From positions 1 through 64,000 of the forward strand of contig NZ_JAQMUB010000091.1 of NCBI RefSeq assembly GCF_028330965.1: 64,000 bases of DNA, written 5' to 3'. Of this stretch, positions 12,678-58,330 are shown piece by piece. The first letter of the stretch is position 1; each line of letters opens with the position of its first letter. The position numbers and the translations under genes were made by a program. Under the pieces are notes generated by a model. The model did no database searches. It was not told the origin of the DNA and saw nothing but the letters and a program-made list of their open reading frames with translations. This DNA is from Oscillatoria sp. CS-180. Lineage in GTDB: Bacteria; Cyanobacteriota; Cyanobacteriia; Phormidesmidales; Phormidesmidaceae.

Positions 12678-12840
12678 ACGCAACATAACGGGCACATTAA
12701 ACCCATCCAATAAAAACAAGCAACAACAATCGAGATTTGCGAATCTCCTAAACCCCATGTTGTTGTTTATTTAACAACATTATTAACAAACATTTAAGGG
12801 GTGTTGGTAAGTAACTGTTTTATATTCGAAAATCCGAGTG

Positions 12841-13107
12841 AAAGGTCGTAGGATTCGGGGCGAAAGGTCGTAGGATTCGGGGCAACAAAAATAGTTTATA
12901 TATTTATCAATGCCTTATGCGCCTAAAGGTCGTAGGATTCGGGGTGAAAGGTCGTAGGATTCGGGGAGGCCCTTTTCTAAAAGCTTGATATTCCAATAAC
13001 TCAAAATTGGCAGTTCAATGAAAAGGTCGTAGGATTCGGGGCGAAAGGTCGTAGGATTCGGGGTGAAAGGTCGTAGGATTCGGGGTGAAAGGTCGTAGGA
13101 TTCGGGG
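12841..13107. repeat. Eight plasmid iterons (replication origin)
   Basis: Eight perfect direct copies of the 20-bp core AAAGGTCGTAGGATTCGGGG are present at 12841, 12863, 12925, 12947, 13022, 13044, 13066 and 13088. They are grouped 2 + 2 + 4. Within groups each core is separated by only 2 bp, a 22-bp period of two helical turns, as expected for initiator binding on one face. AT-rich DNA lies between the groups and to the left. The downstream gene encodes a Rep_3-type initiator, so this is most likely oriV of the integrated plasmid. The 2-bp spacing excludes a CRISPR array. Confidence 0.93.
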
Positions 13108-30887: not shown

Positions 30888-31421
30888 CTAGGCAACTTCG
30901 CTGTAGATGGCGTCTTTGTCCAAATTCTCGCGGCGCAACTCGTCAAAATCCACAGCATCCTTGTCAAGGTTTTCACGGCGCAACTCGTCGAAATCAACAC
31001 CTTTAGCTAGAACCTCGTACACGGCATCTTTATCGAGGTTCTCCCGGCGCAGCTCGTCAAAGTCCACCGCATCCTTGTCAAGGTTTTCGCGACGCAACTC
31101 GTCGAAATCAACGCCTTTAGCTAGGACCTCGTAGACTACATCTTTGTCTAAGTTCTCCCGGCGCAGTTCATCAAAATCGACAGCATCCTTGTCGAGGTTT
31201 TCGCGGCGCAGTTCGTCAAAGTCAATGCCCTTAACTTGAATTTCGTACACGGCATCTTTGTCGAGGTTCTCGCGACGCAACTCGTCAAAATCCACAGCAT
31301 CCTTATCAAGGTTTTCGCGGCGCAGTTCGTCAAAGTCAACCGCTGCATTAGCGGTAGGAGCAATTGCGATCGCGGAAGCAGAAATCGTCAAAGCGGTCAA
31401 AGCAAGTGCAAAGCGTTTCAT
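30888..31421 (-). CDS. Secreted protein of eight identical 15-residue repeats
   Basis: 177 residues. A clear signal peptide (MKRFALALTALTISASAIAIAPTANA, cleavage likely at ANA) is followed almost only by repeats of VDFDELRRENLDKDA. Eight copies occur as four pairs. The first three pairs are followed by an 8-residue spacer VYE(I/V)(Q/L)(V/A)KG, giving a 38-residue higher-order unit, and the last by IYSEVA. The repeats are nearly invariant in protein sequence, but the DNA differs at many synonymous positions, so selection maintains the peptide. They are strongly charged. I do not recognise a family. Possible roles are a periplasmic or extracellular binding scaffold, a metal-binding acidic protein, or a precursor cut into peptides; none is shown. 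It lies alone, convergent with UPF0182. Confidence 0.85.
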   Translation of the reverse strand: MKRFALALTALTISASAIAIAPTANAAVDFDELRRENLDKDAVDFDELRRENLDKDAVYEIQVKGIDFDELRRENLDKDAVDFDELRRENLDKDVVYEVLAKGVDFDELRRENLDKDAVDFDELRRENLDKDAVYEVLAKGVDFDELRRENLDKDAVDFDELRRENLDKDAIYSEVA

Positions 31422-31623
31422 GGTTAGAACTCCTTTCAGCCTTAGTTGACTGATTCATCTTGAGTTCTATAGTGCTCTGAGGTTCTGAGAAGGTGCTGAC
31501 CCGAAAATAAGCGAAGGTTAATCGCTTCCTGAGAAAACTGAGGGGTAGGGATTGGGCTTTTGGGGGACATTGCCCCCTACGCGCACAGCAAACAGCTCGA
31601 TCTTGGATGTTGGGGACAGCTAG

Positions 31624-58282: not shown

Positions 58283-58310
58283 AAGGCAGAAGGCAGAAGG
58301 CAGAAGGCAG
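58283..58310. repeat. Tandem heptamer repeat (four units)
   Basis: AAGGCAG is repeated four times exactly, directly after the opcA stop. This is a typical cyanobacterial short tandem repeat. Confidence 0.85.
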
Positions 58311-58330
58311 AAGTATGTCTCAAAAAACCG

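Follow-up and report, generated by a model that had tools for sequence, protein, structure and literature searches.

Tandem-repeat Sec arrays and a double-glycine peptide of matching core in Oscillatoria sp. CS-180 and related cyanobacteria

The repeat gene, its paralogs and their promoter

The window, a stretch of 64,000 nucleotides from the genome of Oscillatoria sp. CS-180, carries on its minus strand a gene for a Sec-type tandem-repeat protein, in which an N-terminus resembling a signal peptide precedes 15-residue repeats, set in four pairs, and a short tail. The features of the gene and of its upstream region are the following.

30888..31421, minus strand: coding sequence of the Sec-type tandem-repeat protein, 177 aa (ATG start, homologs found)
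31344..31421, minus strand: predicted signal peptide, residues 1-26, MKRFALALTALTISASAIAIAPTANA followed by A (read from sequence)
31251..31340, minus strand: repeat pair 1, repeats 1+2 (repeat comparison and profile match)
31227..31250, minus strand: spacer VYEIQVKG (sequence)
31137..31226, minus strand: repeat pair 2, repeats 3+4 (repeat comparison)
31113..31136, minus strand: spacer VYEVLAKG (sequence)
31023..31112, minus strand: repeat pair 3, repeats 5+6 (repeat comparison and profile match)
30999..31022, minus strand: spacer VYEVLAKG (sequence)
30909..30998, minus strand: repeat pair 4, repeats 7+8 (repeat comparison and profile match)
31430..31435, minus strand: ribosome-binding site AAGGAG (kept in paralog alignment)
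31466..31471, minus strand: -10-like TATAGA within conserved CACTATAGAACTCAAGAT (paralog alignment)
31485..31542, minus strand: conserved promoter element, 11-bp-phased CTCAG..TTCTCAGG..ATTAA..CTTATTT..GTCAG..CTCAG (upstream comparison)

An earlier note on this DNA had described a secreted protein made of eight invariant 15-residue repeats, set in pairs with 8-residue spacers. Secretion is supported by the Sec signal peptide predicted by eye (MKR, a hydrophobic stretch and an ANA/A site) and by an N-terminus that is kept in the paralogs and has similar counterparts in Sec-type arrays built on other cores. The four pairs and their spacers are as described, and invariance applies to a 13-residue core, DFDELRRENLDKD, which shows no difference across the eight repeats; the full 15-mer, VDFDELRRENLDKDA, is found in only six of the eight, since repeat 3 begins with I and repeat 4 ends with V. 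Tandem Repeats Finder (TRF) returns a 114-bp period in the gene (3.8 copies, 83% matches). The repeat pair is the unit of duplication, because at the DNA level A repeats resemble one another (0.87), as do B repeats (0.83), more closely than A resembles B (0.78). The 28 pairwise comparisons of the repeats hold 213.5 synonymous vs 27.5 non-synonymous differences (pS 0.85, pN 0.027, ratio 0.03), which agrees with the selection on the peptide that had been proposed. The repeat pattern is far beyond chance, and independent copies of it occur in many genomes.

The protein had been assigned to no known family, and searches of Pfam, NCBIfam and PDB sequences lead to the same result, with sub-threshold or compositional matches only. 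Against TIGR02953 (pentapeptide MXKDX repeat, cut-off 41), the window protein scores 31.8 and its paralog L002 44.4. EF-hand, dockerin and RTX motifs (DxDxDG, GGxGxDxxx) are absent from the window protein, with no Pfam match above cut-off. The ion-binding role offered by the earlier note is unsupported as a general one, because the acidic stretch DKDAVDFD is not conserved in relatives (KFDQLRRENLDKSQN, LNERFDEARRENLDK) and the cores of other lineages are unrelated; calcium binding by the window repeats was rejected on the same lack of conservation. Two AlphaFold2 predictions for the window protein gave no reliable fold and no usable model (pLDDT 44 with 13 sequences, 42 alone). The two other roles offered, extracellular scaffold and peptide precursor, both stay on the table. 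Neither plasmid records nor an IMG/VR scan contained a match to the window protein. Four uncultured phage records gave 31-37% identity and were rejected as homologs, the likeness being taken as low-complexity; repeats 34-37% identical to the window protein lie in the large uncultured phage genomes LR756502.1 (226154-226522) and LR745206.1 (199434-199706) and are probably compositional. The window has other repeat tracts as well: a 22-bp repeat, AAAGGTCGTAGGATTCGGGGTG, forms three short arrays at 12840-13107 (98-100% matches), and a perfect 7-bp tandem repeat, AAGGCAG, lies at 58283-58313 (4.4 copies).

The own genome (6.5 Mb, 102 contigs) holds nine matches on nine contigs, which comprise eight Sec-type copies of about 5-8 repeats each, the window gene counted, and one short copy; the number of repeats thus varies between paralogs. 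Matches were found in 20 of 59 relatives, all of one family (f1), with up to 15 per genome, and a profile search with the repeat across 390 genomes of the class, an approach the earlier note had suggested, found them in 30, of which 29 belong to f1 and one to a second family, f24. The named relatives with matches are Leptolyngbya, Halomicronema, Nodosilinea and Shackletoniella genomes. Sec-type spacers vary (VYEVLAKG, VYEVAA, VVELQVKG) and are missing from L020 and L053. Conservation of gene position was rejected, as different genes flank the 91% identical relative in Leptolyngbya SIOISBB. One Sec paralog, L034 (G001:C1:1378910), has an apparently frameshifted signal peptide and is likely a pseudogene.

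The own genome has roughly eight Sec paralogs at unrelated positions, and most of them have the same type of promoter, made of CTCAG/ATTAAG repeats in 11-bp phase. In this layout, CTCAGNNTTCTCAGNNANNNATTAAG lies about 120-145 bp before the ATG; CTTATTT, GTCAG and CTCAG come next, likewise phased at 11 bp, and then the TATAGA box. When presence is defined as no more than two mismatches over 19 fixed positions, where shuffled upstream regions seldom get below five, the element precedes 25 of 28 Sec genes in f1 and 9 of 13 in f24, despite their differing cores; a reversed-pattern control gave no match. It is absent from all 16 of the double-glycine (GG) genes examined, which are described below, and from the arrays of genomes G198, G033 and G038. 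The sole other gene found with the element at zero mismatches to the core pattern encodes a DUF4278 protein (MKLTYRGVSY..) of the own genome (L128, G000:C92:95053). At another own-genome locus (L120, G000:C30:139058), the Sec-type promoter, leader and ribosome-binding site are intact and the downstream region is paralog-like, while the repeat ORF has been lost. The element at 31485..31542 looks like an OmpR/PhoB-type activator site. Three Sec genes of the Nodosilinea group (L016, L017 and L019, in G016, G035 and G023) lack the CTCAG promoter and carry GGAACG-like repeats at a phase of about 11 bp.

A double-glycine counterpart with a matching core

The earlier note missed the dispersed paralog set with its shared promoter, and also that a double-glycine/C39 exporter encoded in this genome has the repeat as its cargo. 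The short own-genome copy, on contig C7, reads MTEQAKKDANPKGEQLSDDQLKDVSGG followed by VNFDELRRENLDKDATNFDELRRENLDKD (MTEQ..LSDDQLKDVSGG, then VNFDELRRENLDKDATNFDELRRENLDKD), i.e., a double-glycine leader and exactly one repeat pair. Leaders of the GG precursors end in L..V(S/A)GG before a short core, and a C39 exporter is adjacent. The GG gene is divergent from genes for a cNMP-binding protein (TIGR03896 cyc_nuc_ocin, 210, cut-off 161), a short HlyD-like protein (partial TIGR03794, about 71 bits, cut-off 156) and an NHLM-type C39-peptidase ABC exporter (TIGR03796 NHLM_micro_ABC1, 1103 bits, cut-off 853). The TIGR03797 partner reaches 677 bits in the own genome, on an incomplete gene cut by the locus edge, and 965 bits in L136 (cut-off 709). 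There are only three PF03412 matches in the own genome. The linkage of GG gene and exporter recurs in ten f1 genomes, once on a 7.9-Mb and once on a 6.1-Mb contig, and the same gene order is found in the f24 genomes G259, G097, G266 and G174. A gene for a DM13-domain protein lies near the GG locus in three f1 genomes (L063 7085-7588, L074 2926-3462, L082 4072-4563).

Three precursors (L073, L082 and L161) have two GG sites with a unit after each, the unit being a repeat pair in L073 and L082; such precursors would reveal the unit that the C39 peptidase releases. The GG precursors score below cut-off against the NHLP and Nif11 leader models, and those compared with the CTB family NF038167 (cut-off 32 bits) reach 14.5, 24.1, 30.2 and 19.0 bits. 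The short, generic TIGR01847 signature is present in L168 (25.6 bits, cut-off 15.7), with the own GG copy below cut-off. Among the neighbours of the exporter cluster that were scanned, no receptor gene and no immunity gene was recognised, and RiPP modification was rejected since no maturation enzyme was recognised there. All GG cores examined carry a net charge of -1 to -6, have a GRAVY of -1.0 to -2.1 and are devoid of Cys, Trp and Tyr.

When GG repeats of the own genome are compared with its Sec repeats, synonymous differences have reached saturation (pS about 1), and pN is 0.07-0.09. Recent gene conversion is therefore rejected as the source of the match. In f24, Sec arrays read LSDRFDEARRENLDKGIS.., and GG precursors, encoded beside orthologous exporters 68% identical to that of the own genome, read GG followed by LNERFDQARLENLDK.., then GG followed by LNERFDDARRANLDT. 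Expressed as a fraction of the self score, f24 GG cores score 0.62 against the Sec arrays of their own genome and 0.33 against those of other genomes, and only 1 of 20000 permutations matches cores as well. The same test in f1 alone gave 5658 of 20000 permutations as good, the core varying too little there for a per-genome test.

Exporter peptides of other lineages carry different cores (RPPSGDSNPSD.., RLEHLDNQTK.., GRSAEEFKDGLGNK..), of which RPPSGDSNPSD.., from G198 and G302, shows no detectable resemblance to the rest. The prediction that the G198 GG core, RPPSGDSNPSDLNNPTVDTSD, would recur in Sec arrays held: five copies stand behind MKRLMLASLSALVLSTYAGTANA, and the arrays occur also in G302. 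A second prediction used three further cores from a survey of cNMP-gene orthologs, joined as one query against 13 genomes; matches came only from the lineages that had supplied the cores (G038, G033, G230 and G323), and none from the nine controls. G038 carries an array of ten LTGRSAQEFTDGLGNK units, SVDDIQKVRLEHLNNQTK arrays are numerous in both G033 and G230, and the search of G323 yielded the GG gene alone. Since the GG core of other lineages recurs in their own Sec arrays, the peptide is lineage-specific and is found in two routes, with the core changing in both together. Altogether, GG peptide and Sec arrays with a matching core are present in most genomes examined, and both forms occur in about two dozen. 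Sec arrays are present without this GG copy or the exporter in G001 and G004, and the GG peptide is found without a detected Sec array in five genomes (G032, G365, G323, G180 and G266). We consider this two-route anatomy, Sec arrays plus a GG/C39 peptide of the same core, to be very likely. Units resembling the PPSGD-type core of GG peptides also occur in fasciclin-domain (FAS1) proteins of two genomes of a single genus (L207 in G085:C52; L209 in G302:C139, partial), a match of low significance (E 0.07 in G085, 0.006 in G302).

Possible functions of the paired products

What the two routes deliver would seem to be matching parts of a single extracellular system. We tentatively favour, as a plausible reading that falls short of probable, that the array and the GG peptide are matched components from which an extracellular matrix or an adhesion layer is built. 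In such a model, the C39 exporter would cut at GG and free short units, of two repeats in f1 and of one or more elsewhere, while Sec export, under a separate regulator, would supply long arrays of the same unit. Arrays and short peptides would then meet outside the cell and assemble together or on a common partner, with the arrays forming the polymer and the short peptides acting as its linker, cap or nucleator, and the outcome would be a matrix or adhesion layer that is self-matching. Because the parts must match, the cores of both routes would stay in step. A matrix or adhesion role is favoured because of the precedent of EbfG1-4, which are exported by PteB, are needed for biofilm formation and count matrix proteins and amyloid formers among their members (PMC4997328, PMC9981879), because the fasciclin proteins with core-like units are a weak pointer to adhesion, and because the chemistry of the cores speaks against a membrane-active bacteriocin. 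The high copy number of Sec arrays, the core-like units in FAS1 proteins and the Cys-free, anionic and hydrophilic cores of all lineages also count for it. Against it stand cores that are neither amyloid-like nor hydrophobic, the missing AlphaFold2 fold, the lack of the GG copy and the exporter in G001 and G004, the five genomes without a detected array, the small core variation within f1, which makes its permutation test uninformative, and the weakness of the fasciclin match and its restriction to one genus. It is further conceivable, if rather doubtful, that the system serves bacterial self-recognition or self-assembly, each lineage having a private peptide 'word' sent out once in short C39-released units and many times in long Sec arrays, the two co-changing, with only like binding like.

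Both precursors could instead release one small signal, from Sec arrays by cleavage in the spacers and from GG precursors directly, so that the core would define a lineage 'pherotype'. Pheromones typically combine a conserved leader with a core specific to the lineage, the precursors with two GG sites look multi-unit, and the spacers set the pairs apart; yet the spacers are variable or absent (L020, L053) and offer no constant protease site, at least eight genes with up to ten repeats each amount to a large dose for a signal, and the exporter cluster is without a receptor gene. On balance, we regard a pheromone as unlikely. The disordered-looking, charged and hydrophilic repeats, with no stable fold predicted, would also suit independent protective or ion- or water-binding secreted proteins that an exporter joined later. 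This account is distinctly unlikely, given that conservation of the acidic motif does not extend from core to core and that a hydration role would need no matched cores in two routes.

The exporter family is named after bacteriocins, and the matched, lineage-specific cores would also fit a GG peptide that inhibits relatives and is soaked up or blocked at the producer's surface by Sec arrays of the same core. Such a bacteriocin with its decoy is highly improbable, as the cores are net negative, strongly hydrophilic and lacking in Cys, Trp and Tyr, unlike membrane-active bacteriocins, and no immunity gene or modifying enzyme was recognised in the cluster. Drift could likewise be invoked, with slippage and conversion expanding and homogenising the repeats and with no function in the likeness of the two precursors: repeat number differs between paralogs, gene positions are not syntenic, and the locus at G000:C30:139058 keeps its promoter and downstream region with the ORF lost. 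The substitution pattern, with a pN/pS of 0.03 within the array, largely refutes this account, and the GG and Sec peptides are conserved despite saturated synonymous sites, the promoter is conserved across families and so is the exporter linkage; drift alone is scarcely credible.

Comparison with known systems

The window protein shares with the TIGR02953 MXKDX proteins that it is short, secreted and of low complexity, and differs from them in its period of 15 instead of 5 and in having no M-x-K-D-x repeat. In curli, two secreted proteins with matched repeats, CsgA and CsgB, assemble jointly, which is an analogy only, since curli use a single export route and beta-rich repeats; we know of no homology between them and the Sec arrays or GG peptides. 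Cyanobacteria commonly encode GG-leader peptides together with C39 exporters. EbfG1-4, the best studied of these peptides, are the only ones with a tested role in the literature searched. In Synechococcus elongatus PCC 7942, these small GG-leader proteins of the cell surface and matrix, whose secretion is aided by the C39-peptidase ABC transporter PteB, are required for biofilm formation (PMC4997328, PMC9981879), and mature EbfG is reported to have no homologs in other cyanobacteria (PMC4997328). Compared by description, both systems pair a short GG-leader peptide with a C39-peptidase ABC exporter, whereas EbfG is described neither as tandem repeats nor with a Sec-exported twin (PMC4997328, PMC9981879).

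The exporter genes, the GG leader and the very variable core are also features of NHLM-type clusters (TIGR03796/TIGR03797/TIGR03794) and of the cyanobacterial bacteriocin groups III and V, which have a GG leader and very variable cores (Wang et al. 2011; PMC3140520). Unlike those of NHLM-type clusters, the precursors studied here reach no NHLP, Nif11 or CTB cut-off and show only the TIGR01847 signature, in one of them; no modifying enzyme was recognised adjacent, and the core is a repeat shared with Sec arrays elsewhere in the genome.

In the open-access literature searched, no paper contains the exact core strings, and no description was found of the Sec tandem arrays or of their pairing with an exporter peptide. 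The exporter and GG leader are thus of a known kind, and tandem Sec arrays paired with an exporter peptide are new in that literature. If the pairing is functional, it amounts to a two-route export design for which we know of no described system. Sec arrays are recognisable from sequence without further data, and their core would point to the partner of the exporter in question; the core match predicts an interaction of array and peptide within a strain and none between those of different lineages. Self-recognition in which like binds like would, if true, be a new kind of system, a matrix or signalling role less so.
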